The notes under the pieces were generated by a model that had not been told where the DNA came from, did not search any database, and was given only the letters and a program-made list of their open reading frames with translations. A stretch of 25,083 nt of DNA from positions 1 through 25,083 of the IMG/VR virus record IMGVR_UViG_3300044700_000166; one strand, given 5' to 3'. This document shows positions 2,718 to 23,384 of the stretch, piece after piece. The stretch comes from a virus. How positions within the stretch are numbered: the first letter of the stretch is position 1; each line of letters starts with the position of its first letter. The position numbers and the translations under genes are program-made.

Positions 2718-3554
2718 TTATATTGAAGTAAGATAAGGTAGAATAGCTGATGCTTGAGTTTCATAAGCTTGTAAAGGTTCCATAGCTGTAAAAGTTACGG
2801 TATAACCATTTGCGTCAGATTTAGCAGTTCCAGAACCACCTTCAATACCTGAAACATAAGCTCCTTCTGATAATCCAAACAACCAATATATACCATTACT
2901 ATCTAAAATAATAACAATCAACTCTTTTTGAGCTGAAATAAGTTTTTCAATAAAAGATCTTTTAGTTGTTTCTCTTCTTGATAAAGCCATAGTAACAACT
3001 TGATTAAAGAAAGTTGTGCCATTAGCCATATCAATAGCAACCGTTTCTGTATAGTTACATACATTTTTATTAGTTTCAACTTCATAAAGTAAATAAGTCC
3101 AAATACTTTGATTTGAAGTATTGTTAGGTGCTGGACCAACAGCGACCGTTCCTACTACTGGTGTAAAACCACCAAAATCTGGTGTAATAGTAGTTATGTT
3201 TGTTCCAGAGTTGTATGAAACTGATGTAAGATTTCCATTCCAGTTTCCTCCACCAGTTTGTGAAGTATATGAAAACTTTATTCTTTTTCCAACTTTTATC
3301 CTATTAGTTAAATCACCAGAAACTTGTATAGTAGTAATCACATAGGATCCAGCCACAATAGTTGTATTTATAGTTGCATTTGAAGTAATCAAATATATAC
3401 CTTTGTCTAAGTTAGGTGATATTGAGGTGATTTTACCACCACTTATAGTAGGTGATAATGTATTCCAGTCAGCTATCCACAATCTATTAACACCACCAGT
3501 ATTTGTATCACAGGATCTAACTAAACCTGCTGAGAGTGCATTACATATTGCCAT
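2718..3554 (-). CDS. Tail-tube-like protein, long paralogue with inserted domain
   Basis: A 278-residue protein clearly paralogous to its upstream neighbour (180 aa). Both begin MAICNAL, share a CDTN.GGVN motif near residue 16, and share a long C-terminal block containing ETNKNVCN, NGTTFFNQVVT, RRETTKR, GGSGTAK and NGYTVTFTAMEPLQAY. Between these blocks the long form has about 100 extra residues (roughly 45-152), rich in Thr, Gly, Ser and Asn, with VAGSYVITTIQVSG and LTSVSYNSGTNITTITPDF, which looks like an added beta-sandwich. Tube proteins stack as hexameric rings to form the tail lumen, and an added domain would decorate the outside. The gene has its own terminator on either side. The tube assignment rests on abundance signals, position and the paired gene pattern rather than a diagnostic motif. 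A minor-tail or capsid-decoration role is possible. Confidence 0.65.
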   Translation of the reverse strand: MAICNALSAGLVRSCDTNTGGVNRLWIADWNTLSPTISGGKITSISPNLDKGIYLITSNATINTTIVAGSYVITTIQVSGDLTNRIKVGKRIKFSYTSQTGGGNWNGNLTSVSYNSGTNITTITPDFGGFTPVVGTVAVGPAPNNTSNQSIWTYLLYEVETNKNVCNYTETVAIDMANGTTFFNQVVTMALSRRETTKRSFIEKLISAQKELIVIILDSNGIYWLFGLSEGAYVSGIEGGSGTAKSDANGYTVTFTAMEPLQAYETQASAILPYLTSI

Positions 3555-3630: not shown

Positions 3631-4173
3631 TTAAGCTACTACAGCTGAAATAGCAGTTGGATCAACTTGATAAGCTTGTAAAGGTTCCATAGCAGTGAAA
3701 GTCACCGTGTAACCATTTTTATCAGCTTTTGCTGTTCCTGAACCACCTTCAATCGCAGTTACATAAGCACCCTCAGAAATACCGAAATACCAGTAGTTTC
3801 CGTTGCTATCTAAAACAATAAGTTTTAAAGGTTTTTGACCTGCGATAAGCTGATCAATAAAAGTCCTTTTAGTTGTTTCTCTTCTTGTAAGTTCCAAAGT
3901 TACAACTTGGTTAAAGAAAGTAGTTCCGTTAGTCATATCAATAGAAACCGTTTCAGTAAAGTTACAAACATTTTTGTTAGTTTGTATTTCCCAAAACTTA
4001 GTTGAACCAGTCATAGTAACCACATCAATCCAGTTTCCAACTTGTGGAGAAGAAGCTGCACCGATAGTTTCAGATGCATTAGCGAAATCAGTAACAAAAA
4101 TCTTATTAACACCACCCGCGTTAGTATCACAACTCTTACTTAAACCACCTGTTAAAGCATTACATATTGCCAT
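3631..4173 (-). CDS. Major tail tube protein, probable
   Basis: A 180-residue protein beginning MAICNALTGGLSKSCDTNAG, a small Gly/Thr-rich beta protein with repeated motifs shared with the next gene (NGTTFFNQVVTLELTRRETT, GISEGAYVTAIEGGSGTAK, TVTFTAMEPLQAY). There is no signal sequence or membrane segment. It lies between the capsid gene and its own longer paralogue, and strong hairpin terminators follow both this gene and the capsid gene, the arrangement expected for the most abundant virion proteins. I infer that it is the major tail tube subunit, polymerising around the tape measure. Being the shorter, domain-minimal copy, it is the better candidate for the bulk tube. No experimentally defining residue is visible, so a capsid-associated role is not excluded. 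Confidence 0.65.
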   Translation of the reverse strand: MAICNALTGGLSKSCDTNAGGVNKIFVTDFANASETIGAASSPQVGNWIDVVTMTGSTKFWEIQTNKNVCNFTETVSIDMTNGTTFFNQVVTLELTRRETTKRTFIDQLIAGQKPLKLIVLDSNGNYWYFGISEGAYVTAIEGGSGTAKADKNGYTVTFTAMEPLQAYQVDPTAISAVVA

Positions 4174-6342: not shown

Positions 6343-9300
6343 TTAAAACTTGGTTCTTCTTTCTACCTTCGCAACCTTCTCTTGTGAGTTTGTTATCGCA
6401 TTCTCAGAAACAGAAACATTTTTGTTTGCTTCATTCATAATCTGTTGAAGCTCTCTCATAGTTTGACCATCAAGACCAACTACAACCGGTTGTGAGGTAC
6501 CCATAATCATAGGTGTATTCTTTCTATTAGATAAATCTACTATTCCACCATCAGCGAATGTATTTTTCATAGAACCATCCATATTTGGTATCGGAACGCC
6601 ACCACCAGCTACATTTATAGCACTTAAAATAGGTGCAAACATTTTAGTTGATTTAGCGTTGATTACACTTTCACCATTAGATAGTTTAGCAGTTATTTTA
6701 TCTTCTTTTGGTCCACCTGGTCCTGTTACTAAACCACCTGTAGCATAAGCTGGTACATATTCTTGAGAAAGAACCAAACTTTCTTGTAAAGCTAACTGAG
6801 CTGCTAAGAAAGCTGCTCCTGGAATACCTGCGGGCCAACCAAGAGTTGCGAATGTTTTAGCGATTGCTACACCATATTCTATAAGAAGTTGTGCTGCCTT
6901 ATTAGCTCTTTCAGCTTCAAATCTCTTTTTAGCAATAGCATCAGCTTCTGAGTTTCTTTTATCTTCAGCTTCTTGTCTTTTTAAATCAAACTCTTCTTGA
7001 ATAGCCAATGCACTCTCCTCAGCAGCTGTCCTATTTGATATACTATCTTCATAAGCTCTCTGCTCATCATCAATACGCTTTAATGTGTCTTCATATTTCT
7101 TTTGAGATAATCTATCTTCATTTTGATATCTTTGAGTTAATACCTGTAAAACTAAGTCAGCAGCCATTTTCTCTAAATCAACAATCTTTTTAACAACCTC
7201 AAACTTTTTCTCAACTTCTTCTTTATGTTGTTGATCAATATAAGCTTTTCTTTTAACAGCATTATCAGCAAGAGCATTTTGTCCTTTTTCACCATAAGTA
7301 ACTTGTATAACAAGTAAGTTTTCCTCATGATTTAGTTGCATTTCCTCTCTTTTCTTATTATACTCTTCTTGTGTAATCTCTCCTTTTTCAAGTGAGGTAA
7401 ATAACTCATATTGTGATTGCTCATAATATCTATTTTCTAAATCGGTTAGAGATTTTAACCTATCTTGTAAACTTGATACAAGTTTAGTAGTTTGTTCCGG
7501 TAAAATAGCTGAAAGTTTATCTAAACCAAACTGCTTAACAGGATCTTTAACCTCAACAGCAAATGATTTACCAACTAAACTTTTAGTAATCTCTATTTGT
7601 TCCTTTTCTTTTTCAGTTAATACTCTATTTTCATCTTTAGCTCCTTTTTCAATAAGTTTAACTCTTTTATCTATAATATCAACAAGAGATGCATTTATCT
7701 CACTTTCGGTGTCTTTAATAGTTTCAAACTTATCTTTGTAAATAGCAGCTGATAATAAGTTAGTTTGTCTCGCATTACCAACTTCTTTATCATTAACTTC
7801 TCTTGATAGGTTAAGCATTTGTTGGACGGTTCCAGTATACTCATCAACTCTACCATTAAAGTTTATCATACTTTCTATATTTCTACTAATAGCTTTACTA
7901 AATCCATTTATATCAGCTTCTATAAATGATATACCACCACCACCTAAAACCTGTGTAAGATTAACAAACTTTTCTAACTCTTTATTAAAATCATCAGTTA
8001 CTTGTATACCATTTTCAAGATCTTTTGAATAAGATTTGACCTGTGATTTAAGTTTTTCACCTTGCTCTATTCTTGCTTTAGTATATTCTATATTCTTTTC
8101 ATCAGCTTTTATCTGATCCTCTTTAAGAGATATTCTTTGTTTAAGTATATCTACTTGTGCTTGAAGATCTATAACCGTATCTCTATCTTGCATAGCATTA
8201 GCATCATCAATCTGCTTTTGAAGCTCTGTTATAGCCTCTAAATCCTTTCTAATATTTTCTTTTATATTTTTAATATTAGTTTCTTGGATCATTTTAATAT
8301 CTTCCTGACTTTTTTTGATAGTTTCGGAAACACCTTTTGAAACTTCCTCTAATGCTTTTTTACCATTATCACCGGTGTTTTTTATTAAAATATCAGTCCT
8401 TGTCTTTATGAAATCAAAAAATCTATTATATTCTTCTGTTGAAAGCACTATTCTTGCACTTTCAGTAAGAGCTTCTTTTTGTCTTTTTAACTCTTCTTCT
8501 AATAGTTTTGTCCTAAGGTTTGAATATTTAGTTTGAATAACTAACTTAGCTTCTTCTGTTTGAGTATTTAACTCTTTTATTTTATTATCAATCTCAATAT
8601 TCTTTTTTAAATATTTTGTCCATTGCTCTGTAAATCTTGGATCATTAATATTTCCTTTAACATCTATTTTTAATGTTAACCAATCTTTACTCTTTAAAAA
8701 CTCTTCTTTTTGTTTAGTTAAAAAATCAGATGATATTTTTTCAATAGCATCAGTTTCTTCTTTTTGAGATAATAATGCTTTTTGTAGTTTAATATCATAA
8801 GTTTGCTCCCAACTATCTAAAATAGTTTTTTGAATATTTAACTCATTATCATAAAGTATATCATTTAAGGCATCAATATCAAATACAAAATCTTTATAAT
8901 CATTCTTTTGTTTATCTAAACCTTTCTTATTTTCTTTAGCTTTTTGCTCAGCCGCCTTTTTAGCCTCAGTTACTTCTTTATTTTTAATAACTTGTCTTTC
9001 AAGAGCATATTTATTTTCATAACCTACGGTTGCTCTAAGGTTTTTATCAACAGCATCTAACTCTTCTTGATTTTTTTTAATCTTTTCATTTAAGGCATCA
9101 GCTTCTTCATCCTTACCATCCATAATATAGTTGGTTCTCATTTTTCTTTGCTCAACTAATGTCTTTTCAAGTTGTTTTTGTCTCTTTTTATCATTTTTCT
9201 CTTGCTCATTCAATAACTCAATATCAAGTTTATTAAGTTCCTTATTTGAAGCACCTTTACTCTCAGCTAACTTTTTTCTATTCTTTATTTCATTCTCAGC

Positions 9301-9996
9301 TAAGTCAGCTTGATTTTCTAATAACTCTTTACTAAACTCTAATGAGCTATTTAAAGCATCATTTTTCCTTTTTAAGTCATCAGTTGAGCTTGAGAATATA
9401 GCATAAACACCAATCAAAGCTGTAACAGCACCAATCAATATACCGATTGGGTTAGCAGTCATAGCCGCATTAAGAGCTCTTTGTGTAATAGTTGCTGTTC
9501 CATTAGCAACTGCTAACTGAGCTTTAGAAACCGTTTCTTTACCAACTAAACCAACCGTTACACTTCTAACAATATTTTGAGCTAATAAAGAAGCCGTGCT
9601 TTCTTTTTGTAATATCTCTCCGATTGCCATTAAACCATTTAAAATAGCCATAGCTGATTGGACTTTAAGTAAAGATTTTTCAACAGCTTCATTTTCTGAA
9701 CCGAAAAGAGCAGCAGCACCTTGTACCGCACTAAAAGCACCAGCAATACCAGCACCTATTTCAACAAAACCTCTAAGTTTGAATAAATCATCTCCTAAAG
9801 CTCTTGTTGTTGCATTTAAATCACCAATCTTATCTTGTAACTCACCAGCAGTTTGTGTTATTCTATTAAAAGCATCTGATCCTTCTTCTACTTGTAAAGC
9901 AGCTGATTTTAGATCTCTAAGTGCTTTCTTTAACTCAGCAACCGTTTTAGCACTATCAGCTGCGTCTATGACGGCTTTAATCTTTATTTCATCCAT
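6343..9996 (-). CDS. Tail tape measure protein
   Basis: At 1217 residues this is the longest protein here, and it has tape-measure architecture. An N-terminal helical part (ELKKALRDLKSAALQVEEGS) carries small-residue-rich hydrophobic stretches (about residues 79-101), and a clear hydrophobic segment PIGILIGAVTALIGVYAIF lies near 183-201. A very long, highly charged coiled-coil middle follows (about 205-1040), then a second hydrophobic region (about 1045-1095) ending in a Gly-rich motif ATGGLVTGPGGPKEDKITAK and LSNGESVIN, a common tape-measure C-terminal signature. The protein fills the tail tube, sets its length and is ejected with DNA. If one residue spans about 0.15 nm, the tail would be on the order of 180 nm. 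Oddly, it is separated from the tail chaperone by about 12 kb of tail-tip and fibre genes and sits directly before the prohead protease. Confidence 0.92.
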   Translation of the reverse strand: MDEIKIKAVIDAADSAKTVAELKKALRDLKSAALQVEEGSDAFNRITQTAGELQDKIGDLNATTRALGDDLFKLRGFVEIGAGIAGAFSAVQGAAALFGSENEAVEKSLLKVQSAMAILNGLMAIGEILQKESTASLLAQNIVRSVTVGLVGKETVSKAQLAVANGTATITQRALNAAMTANPIGILIGAVTALIGVYAIFSSSTDDLKRKNDALNSSLEFSKELLENQADLAENEIKNRKKLAESKGASNKELNKLDIELLNEQEKNDKKRQKQLEKTLVEQRKMRTNYIMDGKDEEADALNEKIKKNQEELDAVDKNLRATVGYENKYALERQVIKNKEVTEAKKAAEQKAKENKKGLDKQKNDYKDFVFDIDALNDILYDNELNIQKTILDSWEQTYDIKLQKALLSQKEETDAIEKISSDFLTKQKEEFLKSKDWLTLKIDVKGNINDPRFTEQWTKYLKKNIEIDNKIKELNTQTEEAKLVIQTKYSNLRTKLLEEELKRQKEALTESARIVLSTEEYNRFFDFIKTRTDILIKNTGDNGKKALEEVSKGVSETIKKSQEDIKMIQETNIKNIKENIRKDLEAITELQKQIDDANAMQDRDTVIDLQAQVDILKQRISLKEDQIKADEKNIEYTKARIEQGEKLKSQVKSYSKDLENGIQVTDDFNKELEKFVNLTQVLGGGGISFIEADINGFSKAISRNIESMINFNGRVDEYTGTVQQMLNLSREVNDKEVGNARQTNLLSAAIYKDKFETIKDTESEINASLVDIIDKRVKLIEKGAKDENRVLTEKEKEQIEITKSLVGKSFAVEVKDPVKQFGLDKLSAILPEQTTKLVSSLQDRLKSLTDLENRYYEQSQYELFTSLEKGEITQEEYNKKREEMQLNHEENLLVIQVTYGEKGQNALADNAVKRKAYIDQQHKEEVEKKFEVVKKIVDLEKMAADLVLQVLTQRYQNEDRLSQKKYEDTLKRIDDEQRAYEDSISNRTAAEESALAIQEEFDLKRQEAEDKRNSEADAIAKKRFEAERANKAAQLLIEYGVAIAKTFATLGWPAGIPGAAFLAAQLALQESLVLSQEYVPAYATGGLVTGPGGPKEDKITAKLSNGESVINAKSTKMFAPILSAINVAGGGVPIPNMDGSMKNTFADGGIVDLSNRKNTPMIMGTSQPVVVGLDGQTMRELQQIMNEANKNVSVSENAITNSQEKVAKVERRTKF

Positions 9997-10022
9997 TTAT
10001 TAGAGTAATATTTTATCAAAAT

Positions 10023-10038
10023 ATAGTTTTTCAACTAT
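10023..10038 (-). terminator. Weak hairpin between C1q-like gene and tape measure
   Basis: Read leftward, ATAGTT-GAAA-AACTAT forms a 6-bp stem with a GAAA tetraloop, followed by ATTTTG. It has only one G-C pair per arm and a poor U-tract, so at best it is a partial terminator or RNA-processing signal ahead of the tape-measure gene. Confidence 0.25.
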
Positions 10039-10044
10039 TTGTTT

Positions 10045-10692
10045 TTATATTTTCCAAGTTGTAATAATAACAGAAGGTATTGCTGGTACAGGAGATACTG
10101 GATTAACTGCTTTTAATAATATCTTATCACTTGAAGCCGACCACATTAACTCAATATAGTCACCAGCATTTATATCTAAAAGAAAGTTCCAAGAAGGTAT
10201 TGTTTCAGCACTTGTTCCTTGAATAGCAACTTGTGATGCTGTCCAAGGTATATCAACACCATTCTTTCTTAACCATATAAAAATATGTTGTCCTGAACCA
10301 GAAGACATATCAATCTGTGCTGAAAACTGATAGTTATACACACCTTTATATTGATATGTTGTTTTAGTTCCATATGTTGTAATGTAAATACCATTAGACA
10401 TATCTGTTACCTCACAATACATAACACCTGTATTTGTTAATATATCATATCTTGTATTTGTAGCATCAGCGTGTTGGTTTGCTTCACTATGAAATGAAGC
10501 ATAAATACTACCAGGAGTTGAGCTTGTACCACTATTAGCAAAATATCTACTTTCAACCAACTCATATAACCACTCACCTTCAGTCATACTAAAAGTAAAT
10601 GGTTGAAACTCACTAACAACTATACTTTTGTTAGTTTCATCATAGTCCATAATAAACTTATTGGTACTTAAATCTCTTAACTTAATACTCAT
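10045..10692 (-). CDS. C1q-like receptor-binding / fibre tip protein
   Basis: I place the start at the ATG at 10690-10692 (MSIKLRDLSTNKFIMDYDET, 215 aa), one base after the stop of the 55-aa gene; an ATG at 10728 would lie inside that gene. The C-terminal 140 residues look like a C1q/TNF-type jelly roll: VYNYQFSAQIDMSSGSGQHI, FIWLRKNGVDIPWTASQV, SWNFLLDINAGDYIELMWS and a final IPSVIITTWKI. This pattern is common in structural proteins of marine tailed phages and forms trimeric heads on fibres or appendages. Position at the end of the fibre cassette, after collagen-like proteins (collagen stalk plus C1q head is a common pairing), suggests a surface-binding tip or accessory fibre. The domain call is by pattern; the receptor is unknown. 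Confidence 0.7.
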   Translation of the reverse strand: MSIKLRDLSTNKFIMDYDETNKSIVVSEFQPFTFSMTEGEWLYELVESRYFANSGTSSTPGSIYASFHSEANQHADATNTRYDILTNTGVMYCEVTDMSNGIYITTYGTKTTYQYKGVYNYQFSAQIDMSSGSGQHIFIWLRKNGVDIPWTASQVAIQGTSAETIPSWNFLLDINAGDYIELMWSASSDKILLKAVNPVSPVPAIPSVIITTWKI

Positions 10693-10693
10693 A

Positions 10694-10861
10694 TTACATA
10701 TTTTGTTTAATGGATTGGATTTCAGCATAAACTTTTAATAGCTCAGCTTCTTTTTCAGCTAATAACTCTTCATCAGTTGGTACTGATACCTCAAACTCTC
10801 TAACCTCAACCGTTCCATCTGGAAGGTAAGTTTCTATTCTGTCTATTACTATTTTTGGCAT
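10694..10861 (-). CDS. Small 55-aa fibre-cassette protein, unknown
   Basis: An ATG at 10859-10861 opens a 55-residue frame that fills the gap between the two fibre genes and stops at 10694-10696, one base before the next ATG (TAA-T-ATG). The start has the usual A-rich leader. The protein begins MPKIVIDRIETYLPDGTVEV, continues with acidic PTDEELLAEKEAELLKVYAE, and ends in a short amphipathic helix. Tight coupling and codon content like the neighbours support a real gene. Small proteins of this sort (a short strand followed by a charged helix) occur among phage tail-fibre genes and may help fibre trimerisation or attachment. No family is recognised with certainty. Confidence 0.75.
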   Translation of the reverse strand: MPKIVIDRIETYLPDGTVEVREFEVSVPTDEELLAEKEAELLKVYAEIQSIKQNM

Positions 10862-10879
10862 AATATTATATTTTATTTT

Positions 10880-11740
10880 TTAATGAAATGAATAACCTAA
10901 TGCTATTATTTGTTGAAACTCATTAACTGCATTTACTGAGTTACCACCAGAAGAAACTGCTGGCATAGAAGCTGGTGTTGATGCCGTGTAAGCGCATATC
11001 CAAGTCCAACCCATATCTCTATTTAAAATGGAGGTTGCTAATGATATATCTGCATATTGTATTGGAACCGATCCTAAAAACTTTAAAGAAAGAGAACCTG
11101 TTTGATAGTTTCTTATAGCCATATACCAAACATTTTTATATGTGTTTGAAGATAAAGTATGATTTAACCCAGAAACAACTTTTAAACCAGTTGTAAGTGT
11201 GTTTATATCTACATTTGTATCAAGCTCTAAATCTCCACCTGTGTAAAAACCATTAGCATCAAGTTTAGATCTATAAATAAGTATTCTTACTTGAGCTAAA
11301 CCAAGTCCAGCCGCACCAGCACTCATTATTCTAAAACAAACCTCATCTATTACCTCTCCAGGGTTAGCATAAAATGTTTGAGCGTATATTCTCTCACCAC
11401 TTATAGTATTTGTTGTAGTGGTACCACTCGCGCTTTGATGAGTAAGTTTATAGATTTTAGTTGCATTACCATTAAGTAAATAAGGCACCGTTTTAGTAGT
11501 CATTATAGCATCTCCAACTCCACCACCACTTCCTGCTGGTCCTGTTGGTCCAATCGGTCCTGTTGAACCTGTTGCTCCCGCTGGACCTGTTGCTCCCGCT
11601 GGACCTGTTGCTCCAGTTGCACCTATTCCTCCTGGTAAGTTTGTTATTCCAGATCCATCACCGAAAAATGGTCCATAAAAACCAGCTGATGAAACCGTAC
11701 CAGTTATAAATATATCTTCTCCTATTCTATTTAGTCCCAT
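10880..11740 (-). CDS. Collagen-like tail fibre protein
   Basis: A 286-residue fibre protein. The N-terminus carries the fibre motif FFGDGSGITNL (about residues 24-34), shared with the upstream 1053-aa protein. A collagen-like Gly-X-Y stretch follows (about 38-72, GATGPAGATGPAGATGSTGP then GPTGPAG), and then a beta-rich globular C-terminal domain (about 75-286) with NTISGERIYAQTFYANPGEV and LGLAQVRILIYRSKLDANGF. Phage collagen repeats form trimeric stalks, so this is probably a trimer with a C-terminal binding head. The gene follows the 1053-aa gene with only 3 bases between stop and ATG, so they are co-transcribed. The shared N-terminal motif suggests it derives from, or docks like, a module of the larger fibre. 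Confidence 0.8.
   Translation of the reverse strand: MGLNRIGEDIFITGTVSSAGFYGPFFGDGSGITNLPGGIGATGATGPAGATGPAGATGSTGPIGPTGPAGSGGGVGDAIMTTKTVPYLLNGNATKIYKLTHQSASGTTTTNTISGERIYAQTFYANPGEVIDEVCFRIMSAGAAGLGLAQVRILIYRSKLDANGFYTGGDLELDTNVDINTLTTGLKVVSGLNHTLSSNTYKNVWYMAIRNYQTGSLSLKFLGSVPIQYADISLATSILNRDMGWTWICAYTASTPASMPAVSSGGNSVNAVNEFQQIIALGYSFH
11568..11621 (-). repeat. 18-bp tandem repeats encoding collagen triplets
   Basis: On the plus strand, the 18-mer CCTGTTGCTCCCGCTGGA occurs at 11568-11585 and 11586-11603, followed by an imperfect copy at 11604-11621. It encodes Gly-Ala-Thr-Gly-Pro-Ala units. Exact tandem copies point to recent slippage and allow stalk length to vary. Confidence 0.85.
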
Positions 11741-18278: not shown

Positions 18279-20534
18279 TTAACTTCTGTTGTAAAAGTAT
18301 GATCCACCAAAGTTAGATCCTCTTTGTATATTTCTTGCATTAGATTTAATAACATCAATAATCATTTGTCTTAAACTACCAGTTTCAGTCATATTTCTCT
18401 TATCTAAAAGAGTTGGTTGCTCTGTTGTTAGAGTAACTGGGAATATAAGCTGTTTAGTTGTAAAGTCATTAGAATAACTTTTATCTATGATATAAACCTC
18501 TGGACTTTCATAAATATACATTAACCAATCAATAGTTTCTTGATCTATAAAGTCAGTCCTTAAAGTCCAAGCCTCAATAGAGTTTGTATCAAATGTTGTT
18601 GTTCCTCTTTGTCCTGCTGTATAAGTATATTTTGTACCTTCATAAGATTTTAACTTTCTATTAAAAGTGTTTCTTGTTATATTTCTATTTTTATCAGTTG
18701 GTAAATCAAAGTCATAGTAATCAAAACCACCTAACTCATTCATCCACATAAGAGTATATCTTTTCCACTTTTTATCACAAGGACAAGATATAGTAAAGTT
18801 CCAAGTTTCTCCTGCTGGTTGATATTTCTTATAAACACCATTTATTAATGTTGATTGAGAAATCATATAAGAATAAGGTGTTACTTTATAAGAAGTTATT
18901 GTGCTACCAAACTCAGAGAATGTATTGTCAATCATATTTTGAGGACCAATACCAAATGTTGCTAAACCATATTTAGAAACCGTTGAAGGTGGTGTTTCAG
19001 CATTAGGATCAAGTCCAATACCAATAAGTTTTATTCTTTGGGTCATAGTCAAAGTCCAAGGGTGTGTAGTATCAACATTAAATATACTTGTGTAACCTAA
19101 ATCTAAAACAATATAAGTCCTACCTGTTGTAGAGTTATAATCAGAAGTTATTATTCTAATACCATTATAGTTAGCATTATTCCAAACCGTACCAACTTTC
19201 TGCCAACCAGCTACATTTAAATAAGTTCCATTAGTCCACTCTAATGATTTATTACCATTAAATATAAGTAATGTTTTACCGCTATACATAGCCTTATAAC
19301 TTGCTCCACTTAAAACCGTAAAAGATACATTAGTTGAGATAGGTGGGTAAATAAGTGATGAAACAGCTTCAACAATAACACCATCATAGTTATTAAAACT
19401 TCTACCAGCATATAAGTTGTTAAATATTGGCATATTAAGATTACCTAATGCTGAAAGAGTAAAGTATTGATCGGTACAAACAGAAATAGTTTTTCTTGGT
19501 CTTCTTGTTAAAAATCTTCTTGTTCCATTATAAGCAAGAAAAGACCACTTAGTTGGTTGATAATCAAGTAAATCTTCATATTGAAATACACTATTCCAAG
19601 CAACAGCTAAATCAGTTTTTGTGTTTATTAAATCTCTTTTAACTGCATTATTCAAAGGGAATATATGAATAGTTGAAGAAGATATATCTGTTTGATAAGG
19701 TATATTTGTTTTAACCGTATATGTTTTAATAGAACCAGATATTGATGTTTGTGTAATACTTTTAATATTCCAAGTTGTATTATTTAAGAAGGTTGTATAA
19801 GTATTTGTTGTATCATCTGGTATAGTTGTAATAGTATCTCCACTACTGATAAAAATATCAGCATTTGATCTATATGTAAACTGATAGTAAGTCATACCAT
19901 CTTCACCAATATAAGTAGAAAAGTTAGTCCAGAAACCTTGTATAGCATAAGCACTTGATACATTAACACCGGCAATAAATGGTGTGTTTAAAATAACCCC
20001 ATTACTTGAAAATCTTGTATCATAAACTTTCCAAGCTCTATTAAGAGTTGCATTTGAAGTACCTTGTATTAAGATAGAACCATTATTATTAACATTACCA
20101 TAAGAAACATAAGAGCCATATATAAGAGGTGTGCTTAATACAAATGATGCTTTTGATCCAGGTACACCGATAATATTACCTGCAAGAGAGGTTGTTATTT
20201 TACCACCTCTATTAACTTCTTCTCCAAAAGAAACATAATAATCTTTATAAGCAGAATAAGGTATAGTTATTCCTTTTGCTTTCCAAGGCAACTCATATGT
20301 AATATAATCTTCTAATATTCTACCAATATCAAATATACCATTTTCCCCACTTGATATATTTGGATTGTGTCTTAACTCACCTATTTTAGATCCAGCTGCC
20401 GTATAAATCTCGCATATGTATCTAAATGAAGGAGTATATTTCATATCACTTGTTACAACAAATGGTAGTCCATTATAGACAGGGGAATATTTTGTTGAAA
20501 GTCCGTCATAGGGCCTACTTATAATACTTATCAT
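18279..20534 (-). CDS. Distal tail / tail-tip structural protein, probable
   Basis: A 751-residue Tyr-, Thr- and Asn-rich beta protein without membrane segments or signal peptide. The N-terminus (IISRPYDGLSTKYSPVYNGL, IFDIGRILEDYITYELPW) and a C-terminal part with KRYTLMWMNELGGFDYYDFD, EAWTLRTDFIDQETIDWLMY and a final helix resemble large structural proteins of Bacteroidota phages. The LGG.DYYDF-type segment recalls distal-tail (Dit-like) proteins. Its ATG overlaps the stop of the tail-completion gene (ATGA), so the two are translationally coupled, and the 1083-aa hub-like gene follows. Together these suggest it is part of the tail tip between tube end and hub. I do not recognise a defined catalytic domain, and the exact role is inferred from order. 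Confidence 0.6.
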   Translation of the reverse strand: MISIISRPYDGLSTKYSPVYNGLPFVVTSDMKYTPSFRYICEIYTAAGSKIGELRHNPNISSGENGIFDIGRILEDYITYELPWKAKGITIPYSAYKDYYVSFGEEVNRGGKITTSLAGNIIGVPGSKASFVLSTPLIYGSYVSYGNVNNNGSILIQGTSNATLNRAWKVYDTRFSSNGVILNTPFIAGVNVSSAYAIQGFWTNFSTYIGEDGMTYYQFTYRSNADIFISSGDTITTIPDDTTNTYTTFLNNTTWNIKSITQTSISGSIKTYTVKTNIPYQTDISSSTIHIFPLNNAVKRDLINTKTDLAVAWNSVFQYEDLLDYQPTKWSFLAYNGTRRFLTRRPRKTISVCTDQYFTLSALGNLNMPIFNNLYAGRSFNNYDGVIVEAVSSLIYPPISTNVSFTVLSGASYKAMYSGKTLLIFNGNKSLEWTNGTYLNVAGWQKVGTVWNNANYNGIRIITSDYNSTTGRTYIVLDLGYTSIFNVDTTHPWTLTMTQRIKLIGIGLDPNAETPPSTVSKYGLATFGIGPQNMIDNTFSEFGSTITSYKVTPYSYMISQSTLINGVYKKYQPAGETWNFTISCPCDKKWKRYTLMWMNELGGFDYYDFDLPTDKNRNITRNTFNRKLKSYEGTKYTYTAGQRGTTTFDTNSIEAWTLRTDFIDQETIDWLMYIYESPEVYIIDKSYSNDFTTKQLIFPVTLTTEQPTLLDKRNMTETGSLRQMIIDVIKSNARNIQRGSNFGGSYFYNRS

Positions 20535-21055
20535 TCTTTTAAGTCATTTTTTATGAAGTTATTTAACTCCTCTTTTATATTAGCAACTATGGCTTCACCA
20601 AAAGCCTCTGTTAGTTTTCTTAAATCTAAGTTTTTTTCTAATGGTGATGTAAAGTTTAAACCTTTTACTGGTGTATAAACACTTCTACTCTTACCACCAC
20701 CTCTTACAACACCCATTTTACTTGAATAAAAACCACCTCTGGCTATCTTAACCATAATAGGATAAACTGCTGATTGTGGTATTCCCTTTAATCTGGCCCA
20801 GTTTTCAATATCTTTCTTAGGTGGAAATCTACCAGGGTTTCTACCCTTATCAACATATTTACCATAATCAGCATATTCTATAACCAAGTTCCAAACTCCA
20901 TTATCAACATAAACATCATATGAAAGAGATTTTAAAAGATTTCCAGAGGCAATAGCCGGTCTACCTTTATAACCTGCTGTTATAATGGCTTTCATTTCAT
21001 CAATAATCTGATTACCAACTTCCTCTAACTTTTTATATATGTTATCTACTTTCAT
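20531..21055 (-). CDS. Tail completion / neck protein, HK97 gp10-like
   Basis: A 174-residue protein counted from the ATG at 21053-21055 (MKVDNIYKKLEEVGNQIIDE); a TTG two codons upstream is less likely. It has the gp10-like layout: an N-terminal helix, then IASGNLLKSLSYDV (about residues 37-50), VIEYADYGKYVDKGRNPG (about 59-76), KKDIENWARLKGI, and a final helix. These proteins bridge the tail end and the connector during head-tail joining. The ATGA overlap with the next gene and the position just after the tail-terminator-like gene fit. The family call by pattern is good; whether it acts on the tail side or head side is less certain. Confidence 0.78.
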   Translation of the reverse strand: MKVDNIYKKLEEVGNQIIDEMKAIITAGYKGRPAIASGNLLKSLSYDVYVDNGVWNLVIEYADYGKYVDKGRNPGRFPPKKDIENWARLKGIPQSAVYPIMVKIARGGFYSSKMGVVRGGGKSRSVYTPVKGLNFTSPLEKNLDLRKLTEAFGEAIVANIKEELNNFIKNDLKE

Positions 21056-21069
21056 ATTCAATCATTTAT

Positions 21070-21504
21070 TTAATAATCATCACAAGGACTATTATTCATA
21101 TCTGTTATTAATCTTAAATCAGTATACCAACCAGTATTGTAATCTACAAATCTATGTGTAAATGGTAAACAGATTGGTCTATCATTAACCCCATAATCAG
21201 GATCACTATTTCTAAACACTCTAATAACATCAATAAGTGTCCTTAATGTGTCTGATAGTATTTGTTGTTGTTTGCTATCATCAGTATCATCAATATCAAA
21301 TACTAAAACTCTAATAACATAAACTAAATCATTTTCACCAACCTCAACTTGTTGTGGAACTATCCAAAGAAATGGATAATCACCTGAAGTTGGCCCTTCT
21401 GTTTCAATCTCTGTTATCTCACCACTACCAAATCTTTTGATAAATGGGTTATTTGAGGCTATTACCTCAAACTTATTTATAATCTGGTTATATGTTAAAC
21501 TCAT
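21070..21504 (-). CDS. Tail terminator-like protein, probable
   Basis: A 144-residue protein: TYNQIINKFEVIASNNPFIK at the N-terminus, then GDYPFLWIVPQQVEVGENDL, and a central strand-helix block with VYVIRVLVFDIDDTDDSKQQ followed by LSDTLRTLIDVIRVF. The alternation of a first helix, antiparallel strands and a long helix resembles tail terminator proteins, which cap the tube and complete it for joining to the head. It lies between the tail chaperone and the gp10-like protein, a usual place for this function. The N-terminal pattern resembles small structural proteins I associate with Bacteroidota phages. The role is inferred; a general neck protein is the alternative. Confidence 0.6.
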   Translation of the reverse strand: MSLTYNQIINKFEVIASNNPFIKRFGSGEITEIETEGPTSGDYPFLWIVPQQVEVGENDLVYVIRVLVFDIDDTDDSKQQQILSDTLRTLIDVIRVFRNSDPDYGVNDRPICLPFTHRFVDYNTGWYTDLRLITDMNNSPCDDY

Positions 21505-21506
21505 AC

Positions 21507-22303
21507 TTATTTATATTTTTTTATATCCATTTCTTTTTCATAACTCAACCATACTAAACACTCTAATACTGGTTTTGATACTACTGCTTCCGTTTTTGTT
21601 ATATCTCCATCACAAAGAGAATATATAACTCCAATCCAACCCCATTTATCAGTTTTATCATTTATGTTGTCGGCTTGAGCGTCCTGTATGGTCCTTCTTT
21701 TTTTATCCACTCCGCTATCTTCATCAATAGCTCTGAGTAACTTTTCATCGGCGTCACTTTCCCCTCCGTCATCAGTCCTAAATAGTCCCTCAAATCTTCT
21801 GTATATCTCTCCACGCCATTCCAAAAAAAAAGTATGTTTGACCAAACAAACTCCATATTAAGCTCTAACATAATCTTAACTCTATCTTCATCAAACTTAT
21901 AAGGTTCTAACTCATACTTTCTTGTTAAGAGGTTTCTACTCTTAACTGGTAAAACTAATATAGAAATAATGTTTTCAATATTATCATCAAAACCAAGTTT
22001 GTAATATTCTTCTATATCAACCATTTGTGCAAGTGTTAACTCATTTAATGCTGTTAAACCATACTCATTACCATCCACTTTAATAGTTTCAACCCTTTTA
22101 GCTTTTGGTAGGTTCTTAACCCAAGAATAACTTTCCCATTTACTAAAAATGTATTCAGGTGTATTATTCTCAACCTCACTAAATGATTTATCTTCTATAA
22201 TAGCAATCTGCTCAATAAGTAAATCAATCGCTTCTTTACCTTCTTCTTTAACATTCATTAGAGCCTTTGCTTTCTTTAAACTTATATCTTTCCAAGTTTT
22301 CAT
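21507..22303 (-). CDS. Tail assembly chaperone, -1 frameshift fusion (gpGT-like)
   Basis: Predicted 265-residue product made when ribosomes slip back one base at the A7 heptamer (21698-21704). Residues 1-202 come from the zero frame and are followed by 63 residues from the -1 frame (RRTIQDAQADNIND onward, including KWGWIGVIYSLCDGDITKTE and PVLECLVWLSYEKEM, ending at 21507). The -1 frame has no ATG between its opening and the overlap, so it is unlikely to be translated on its own, yet its unique part reads as a well-formed helical protein. Tail chaperones in many long-tailed phages are made as a short form and a frameshifted long form that coat the tape measure during assembly (lambda G and GT). 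The gene sits just before the tail-terminator-like gene, consistent with that role, although the tape measure is far downstream. Confidence 0.75.
21662..22303 (-). CDS. Tail assembly chaperone, short form (gpG-like)
   Basis: The zero-frame product, 213 residues, starts at ATG 22301-22303 (MKTWKDISLKKAKALMNVKE) and ends with EWIKKEGPYRTLKPTT. It is helical and acidic to neutral, with NELTLAQMVDIEEYYKLGFD (about residues 86-105) and FVWSNILFFWNGV as notable segments, and has no membrane signal. By analogy with lambda G it should bind the tape measure and recruit tube subunits, and be absent from the finished virion. The last 11 codons after the slippery site are specific to this form. The Arg/Thr/Pro-rich tail and the somewhat higher G+C of the overlap are expected where two frames are both constrained. 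Confidence 0.75.
   Translation of the reverse strand: MKTWKDISLKKAKALMNVKEEGKEAIDLLIEQIAIIEDKSFSEVENNTPEYIFSKWESYSWVKNLPKAKRVETIKVDGNEYGLTALNELTLAQMVDIEEYYKLGFDDNIENIISILVLPVKSRNLLTRKYELEPYKFDEDRVKIMLELNMEFVWSNILFFWNGVERYTEDLRDYLGLMTEGKVTPMKSYSELLMKIAEWIKKEGPYRTLKPTT
21698..21704 (-). other. Slippery heptamer for -1 ribosomal frameshift
   Basis: Read leftward the sequence is ATA AAA AAA GAA in the zero frame, that is A AAA AAA followed by G, a canonical X XXY YYZ slip site at which both tRNA-Lys can re-pair. GCGGAG lies roughly 5-10 bases upstream and could act like the internal Shine-Dalgarno of dnaX, though Shine-Dalgarno use is weak in this genome. I see no obvious stable stem just downstream. 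Confidence 0.8.
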
Positions 22304-22521: not shown

Positions 22522-22779
22522 TTACCATAATATTTTTTCTATAAGTCCTGCTAAAACGGAACTTATTACTGCTATAACTGGATCAAATGTAAATAAGATT
22601 GTTACCCAAAATGTTAAACACTTTGAGCAATAGAGTAATCTATGAAAGAACCTCATATTGGAACTCATTTCATCATACTCTTCTTCTTTAAATCCAAACC
22701 ATCTCTTTATCATTATTACTGGTTCAGCAACTACCAATAGGTAACCAAAACAGGCCCAAGCAACTATACTTAATATCAT
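22522..22779 (-). CDS. Small membrane protein with CxxC (DUF1360-like)
   Basis: An 85-residue protein with a hydrophobic N-terminal segment (about residues 3-24, ILSIVAWACFGYLLVVAEPV), a charged loop (25-46), then LLYCSKCLTFWVTILFTF with Cys51 and Cys54 leading into a second hydrophobic stretch (57-80). The RLL.C..C..FW pattern recalls the DUF1360 group of small membrane proteins. It probably spans the inner membrane twice with the CxxC near the surface. Its ATG overlaps the stop of the sigma-like gene (ATGA), so translation is coupled. A membrane protein in the middle of a terminase-tail operon is unexpected. It could be holin-like, involved in exclusion or assembly at the membrane, or a virion component; none is supported by a specific motif. 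Confidence 0.65.
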   Translation of the reverse strand: MILSIVAWACFGYLLVVAEPVIMIKRWFGFKEEEYDEMSSNMRFFHRLLYCSKCLTFWVTILFTFDPVIAVISSVLAGLIEKILW

Positions 22780-23384
22780 AACTTTCCTTTTATTTCATTT
22801 TTTAACTCTAACATTAGGTTATAAATAGATTTTTTACTCTTATAATAAACAACTTTACCATTTTTATCTTTTCTAAAAAAGTGGTACTTCTCTTTTATTT
22901 TATCATATGATAAATCTTCTAAGAAGTATGCCTTAAATAGTATTTGTTGTGATTTAGAAAGAGTTGGGTATATCTCATGTATTTTCAATATATTCTCTAC
23001 TTGATCATCAGTATAGATTGTTTTTAGATCTTTTATATAATCAGCTTCATCTAAATCAGCACTAACCTCTGTTGCTATTTCAGGCATTTCCCACTCAGTA
23101 GCCATATTATTATATTTTTTTGAAAATGGCGTTGTTGAGTATTTTGCTTGTAGTTTCATCCAACTAATACTAAATGCTGTTAAGTCATTATAAGTATTTG
23201 GGTCATTACTTAAATAAGGTAATAATCTTTCTTGATTATCATATATGAATAGGACTAACTCTGAAACTAAATCATCATAGTTTAGTTTTTTACCTTTCAT
23301 AATATTTTTTGCACAAGTCCTAATAAAATCATATTTAGAGTTTATAAACTTGTCTATGTGTGTTTTCCATTCACTCTTTTTCAT
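22776..23384 (-). CDS. Sigma-factor-like protein
   Basis: A 202-residue helical protein with the outline of a small sigma-70 family (ECF-sized) factor. Residues about 16-80 (YDFIRTCAKNIMKGKKLNYD, DLVSELVLFIYDNQERLLPY) resemble sigma region 2, which binds RNA polymerase and the -10 element. After an acidic linker (about 98-125), residues about 142-198 (LSKSQQILFKAYFLEDLSYD, SIYNLMLELKNEI) resemble the helix-turn-helix of region 4. The region 4-like part is interrupted by a basic insert (FFRKDKNGKVVYYKSKK). If functional it would direct host RNA polymerase to phage (late) promoters. It follows the terminase gene in the operon it might control. The call is by pattern only; a packaging-associated DNA-binding protein is the alternative. 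Confidence 0.6.
   Translation of the reverse strand: MKKSEWKTHIDKFINSKYDFIRTCAKNIMKGKKLNYDDLVSELVLFIYDNQERLLPYLSNDPNTYNDLTAFSISWMKLQAKYSTTPFSKKYNNMATEWEMPEIATEVSADLDEADYIKDLKTIYTDDQVENILKIHEIYPTLSKSQQILFKAYFLEDLSYDKIKEKYHFFRKDKNGKVVYYKSKKSIYNLMLELKNEIKGKL

Follow-up and report, generated by a model that had tools for sequence, protein, structure and literature searches.

Control of tail length by a fixed ratio of two chaperones counts as a textbook case of ribosomal frameshifting, and Xu, Hendrix and Duda reportedly described in 2004 that the tail-assembly frameshift is conserved among dsDNA tailed phages. In the E/E' tail genes of phage P2 the ribosomal site is T_TTT_TTG. The tail-assembly frameshift of dsDNA tailed phages, with lambda gpG/gpGT as its example, has been reviewed, and from the same source it is known that in E. 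coli A_AAA_AAG is highly shift-prone and U_UUU_UUU much less so (PMC5009743). Two product lengths can also arise by transcriptional slippage, for which T runs longer than eight are known sites (PMC3711429) and which operates in Shigella mxiE (T run) and Thermus dnaX (A9) (PMC3711429, PMC5009743). The RNA polymerase of E. coli, with its hybrid of 8-10 bp, prefers to slip on poly(T) (PMC6260861); the hosts considered here are Bacteroidota. A limited literature search found no report of transcriptional slippage in a phage tail chaperone.

The window analysed here, a virus record of 25,083 bases, contains on its minus strand a zero-frame gene ('G') of 213 aa, which starts with ATG and spans 22303..21662 (coding part 21665..22303, stop codon 21664-21662). 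It is overlapped by a long -1 frame with an open stretch of 21857 to 21510, a stop codon at 21509-21507 and its sole ATG close to the C-terminus. The earlier note had recognized both frames and proposed a G/GT-like gene with a programmed -1 shift, a view that is now backed by about 240 relatives. The site of the shift is placed differently here, at a run of nine T (T9, 21823..21831), which is the only T run of nine that the window has on its coding strand and whose zero-frame codons are ATA CTT TTT TTT TGG (I-L158-F-F-W). A -1 frame stop codon at 21858..21860, 26 nt 5' of T9, is the upstream bound on the shift. Past the run, the -1 frame encodes a 'T' part of about 105 aa (21510..21822), with the sequence L-E-W-R-G-E-I-Y-R-R-F...KWGWIGVIYSLCDGDITKTE... 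The fusion is predicted to have 265 aa, as in the earlier prediction, since a shift at T9 or at the A7 run proposed before gives the same length. Its junction peptide in the window would be SNILFFLEWR, and the zero-frame counterpart is SNILFFWNGVER.

Like lambda gpG/gpGT, this locus presents an overlapping gene pair in a tail-proximal structural module, a frame change in the -1 direction and, as predicted products, an N-terminal protein and a scarcer C-terminal extension. It differs from lambda, which has its own heptamer, by the near-invariant T9, by a zero frame that extends 59-248 nt beyond the site (range over the relatives), and by its position after terL and before putative tail terminator/completion genes instead of before the tape measure; sequence homology to gpG/gpGT is not detectable. 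P2 E/E' shares the T-rich slip site, the tail gene and the -1 frame, but P2 requires a 7-base heptamer whereas the run here has nine or ten T whatever the codon phase. With mxiE and dnaX the locus has in common a homopolymer of at least nine at the frame change and two product lengths, although those are bacterial genes and this is a phage gene. Cultured relatives in the comparison are Nonlabens phages P12024S and P12024L, whose gene 38/40 is homologous, follows terL and contains the same T9 (L122:9431-9439 in P12024S) and the same -1 'T' part. Their annotation lists two separate hypothetical proteins; the frame change went unrecognized and the long product is missing.

Carriers of the gene are marine and freshwater phages, and hundreds of relatives have kept the T run. 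All 14 relatives from the first search (33-51% identity) have exactly nine T where the -1 frame becomes conserved. Wider searches with alignments of the zero frame and of the -1 frame yielded 166 unique contexts, comprising 160 with T9, five with T10 and one false regex match (L043) whose actual run is T9; four loci outside the regex pattern were inspected by eye and all four carry T9. The prediction that new members would have at least nine Ts was made before 80 further contigs were scanned, and their 77 unique contexts proved to be 69 T9 and 8 T10, with none shorter. Over the approximately 240 distinct contexts, about 95% have T9, 13 have T10, spread over several lineages, and none falls below nine. 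With the 'T' part as the sole query, at least 573 contig stretches of IMG/VR were matched. Scans of GTDB gave no close relatives in bacterial genomes, a search through the 176-aa neighbour protein gave no relatives either, and in gut Bacteroidota phages with a terL match the next gene has neither a T9-type site nor a frame change.

The codons of the run are unusually constant. The two Phe codons read TTT-TTT without exception (112 of 112 sequences), whereas in the same comparison the commonest codon of other conserved two-fold positions reaches only 55-80%, and Phe outside the run of this gene is TTT in 79%. Elsewhere, T9 runs on the sense strand number only four in 718 kb. Judged from these comparisons, the T run is under selection. 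Over the 18 codons past the run, the -1 frame has a BLOSUM62 score of 1.84 per position and 35.7% identity, compared with 0.55 and 22.2% for the zero frame. The zero-frame protein is conserved through F159-F160 and its tail beyond F160 is not; the conserved -1 peptide FLEWR..YRRFEGLF begins at T9. Upstream of the run, the -1 frame lacks ATG, GTG and TTG in 111 of 154 contexts, and six relatives have a -1 stop codon no more than 3 nt away from it. Because of this conservation past the run, the missing start codons and the close stops, the -1 segment is evidently entered by changing frame at the run itself. A programmed -1 frame change at T9 rather than at A7 is strongly supported, since TTT-TTT is invariant, start codons are lacking and stops lie near the run. 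The place, the -1 direction and the conservation of the frame change are likewise supported by the aligned relatives.

We propose that normal transcripts (U9) would give the 213-aa G-like protein, and that in some of the transcripts or rounds of translation a change to the -1 frame at T9 would give the 265-aa GT-like fusion, composed of G residues 1-160 and about 105 residues of the -1 frame. In the form that we favour, nine rU:dA pairs would fill the 8-10 bp hybrid of the host RNA polymerase, which could realign and add one U, and the resulting U10 mRNA would be read into the fusion by ordinary translation. We infer that both proteins are made and that their ratio is set by the length of the run, not by its codon phase. 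The pair would then act in tail assembly as a chaperone, like lambda gpG/gpGT.

The alternative with the best standing is programmed -1 ribosomal frameshifting on the lambda G/GT principle, in which two Phe-tRNAs slip in tandem on U_UUU_UUU within T9. Since this heptamer is present in the zero frame in all contexts and in all codon phases, the ribosome is a real candidate, and the tail chaperone frameshifts studied in other systems are ribosomal (PMC5009743). Where the frame changes, the zero frame thus shows the X_XXY_YYZ pattern of ribosomal -1 sites, and the homopolymer of conserved length (A >7 or T >8) that characterizes transcriptional slippage is there too, as T9 or T10 in all contexts. 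One point against the ribosome is the length of the run: seven Ts would be enough for it, yet the run is never shorter than nine. Nine T are maintained in all three codon phases, namely phase 1, encoding (L/V/I)FF(W/Y/C/S) as xTT TTT TTT Tyz, phase 2, encoding (N/S/G/T/A)FFL as xyT TTT TTT TTG, and phase 3, found in L069 as CGG TTT TTT TTT G. A T8 version such as xyT TTT TTT Tyz would keep the heptamer and use residue types known in the family, yet it occurs in none of the contexts and the run length stays constant across the phases. Part of the surplus T content is, however, forced by hydrophobic residues that are encoded in both frames.

In a tree of 155 sequences the codon phase changes five times, and the two flanks change oppositely in every independent pair of the tree (three on firmly supported branches, five in the best tree). 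A sign test on the three firmly supported independent phase changes falls short of significance (p = 0.25), because there are only three pairs. A conserved RNA structure was not found around or downstream of the site, where the mean folding z-scores of -0.05 to -0.40 are no better than in the rest of the gene, and no Shine-Dalgarno-like motif near the site was apparent by eye. Neither a downstream structure nor an upstream Shine-Dalgarno-like stimulator is always required for -1 ribosomal frameshifting, and the lambda G site also functions without a strong stimulator. The weakness of U_UUU_UUU in E. coli weighs further against the ribosome (PMC5009743). Because the run length is fixed in three phases, a conserved RNA structure was not found and published work on slippage points the same way, we favour slippage of the RNA polymerase over slippage of the ribosome, with modest confidence and from sequence comparison; the ribosomal mechanism, which the earlier note had assumed, is the less probable of the two. 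With slightly less assurance we extend this reading to a large Bacteroidota-type phage group, which may set the ratio of its tail chaperones by polymerase slippage on an invariant T9 and not by ribosomal frameshifting.

The slip site first proposed for this gene was A_AAA_AAG at 21698-21704, on which the ribosome would shift by -1. The heptamer does exist in the window and is correctly phased (ATA AAA AAA GAA, with A7 at 21698..21704 on the minus strand, 33-40 bases before the zero-frame stop), and A_AAA_AAG belongs to the sequences that slip readily in E. coli (PMC5009743). The alignments contradict it, since none of the 14 first-search relatives has A7 or any other XXXYYYZ heptamer there and the frame change lies about 125 bases further upstream, at T9. 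The earlier note itself had counted relatives with a disrupted A7 run against its site; because such relatives exist, the site is refuted. Moreover, the conserved -1 segment FLEWRGEIYRRFEGLF would be lost from a product shifted at A7, which does not contain the peptide that begins at T9. Runs of A7 or longer are common, with 15 on the window's coding strand and about one per 2 kb in the relatives (353 sense-strand runs in 718 kb), and this unconserved one is probably incidental. A shift at A7 is accordingly a reading to which we give hardly any weight. The peptide across the KK-RR junction and the reporter over 21690-21720 that had been suggested as checks would be in the wrong place for a frame change at T9.

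It is just as improbable that the -1 frame forms a gene of its own (the annotation in P12024S, gene 39), started independently or by reinitiation coupled to the zero-frame stop. The zero-frame stop of P12024S does form TAATG, but the relatives do not generally keep this arrangement, as TAATG or TGATG is found in only 22 of 154 contexts. The peptide conserved in the -1 frame already begins at the T run, in many cases 100 nt upstream of the zero-frame stop, and the 111 contexts without a start codon before the run offer no entry there; T9 would also be left unexplained. A phase-variable contingency run, an assembly error or a pseudogene is the least credible of all, for although homopolymers slip during replication and sequencing and T8 and T7 occur in two noisy 'plasmid' records, the length hardly varies across some 240 distinct contig contexts and two cultured phages, where a phase-variable run would differ among close relatives.

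Returning to the frame change at T9, the identity of the products as a tail assembly chaperone is quite probable, and is suggested by the layout and the logic of two products rather than by homology. As in G/GT, two frames overlap and are joined towards the 3' part of the first gene by a -1 change that the relatives have kept. Chaperones of the G/GT type bind tape measure and tail tube proteins and do not occur in virions. The identification as tail chaperone in the earlier note thus fits the layout and the neighbouring genes, but sequence homology to a known chaperone was not found: Pfam and NCBIfam gave no convincing match, and among the solved structures of the PDB there was none by sequence or fold. 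Since no such similarity was found, the gene is classed as one that works like a G/GT chaperone and not as a proven member. The AlphaFold2 model of the zero-frame protein (pLDDT 88), computed with an alignment that leaves aside the cultured phage, is a mixed helix/hairpin domain as far as the run, with about 97 in the core and a drop past residue 150, and the 'T' part is modelled as helical with moderate confidence (72). Among the predicted viral structures of BFVD, matches were obtained to P12024S and many phage proteins, while those to annotated chaperones are weak (E=0.17 and 0.65). Two BFVD entries, A0A516L5A8 (260 aa) and A0A6J5SVK3 (241 aa), each match the model of the zero-frame protein as well as that of the 'T' part, which suggests, at the level of predicted structures, that some relatives carry both parts as one uninterrupted gene, as if the frame change had been lost. 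In Flavobacterium phage 6H the zero-frame protein has just a remote relative by fold, and T9 is missing; the locus (L206, ~9990-10930) shows a T6 run and a downstream open frame, and the frames do not join there.

What is new here is the near-invariant T9, its presence whatever the codon phase and the argument for polymerase slippage that follows from them. If this is true, phages can set the chaperone ratio at transcription, in a family of at least 500 viral contig stretches, and the two-protein logic has been shifted from translation to transcription. The T9 family would then be a natural experiment in which run length tunes polymerase slippage. The annotation of the gene is also corrected, because the long product is unannotated in both cultured carriers, P12024S and P12024L, where it is directly testable.

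The frameshift gene lies downstream of terL and is followed on the minus strand by a 144-aa gene (21070..21504), a probable tail terminator by a weak match and by analogy with L008:6768-7211, and by a 176-aa protein (20531..21061) with a weak match to HK97-gp10/Neck1-like tail completion proteins. The tape measure protein of 1217 aa (6343..9996, minus strand; phrog_25241, E=2e-15) is encoded on the same strand about 11.5 kb downstream and does not adjoin the frameshift gene. Between terL and the frameshift gene, at 22776-23384 (minus), a protein resembling a small sigma factor is encoded, and in P12024S, too, a gene for sigma-70 region 2 lies close to terL. The gene order of the window is unusual (464-25083, minus), with the terminase and tail-proximal genes followed by fibres, tape measure, protease, capsid and tail tube, and the portal last. 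Two 'plasmid' records, CP045836.1 (L204, Lysinibacillus) and NZ_CP040811.1 (L205, Escherichia fergusonii), share 99.7% identity across 12 kb and are full of broken genes, with T8 and T7 in the phage frameshift gene; both seem to be a single phage genome, perhaps a contaminant, in which homopolymers were misread. In the window, the adjacent genes at 2718-3554 and 3631-4173 (minus) encode proteins that are alike in their N- and C-terminal parts and are probably tail tube duplicates, one of them with an insert.
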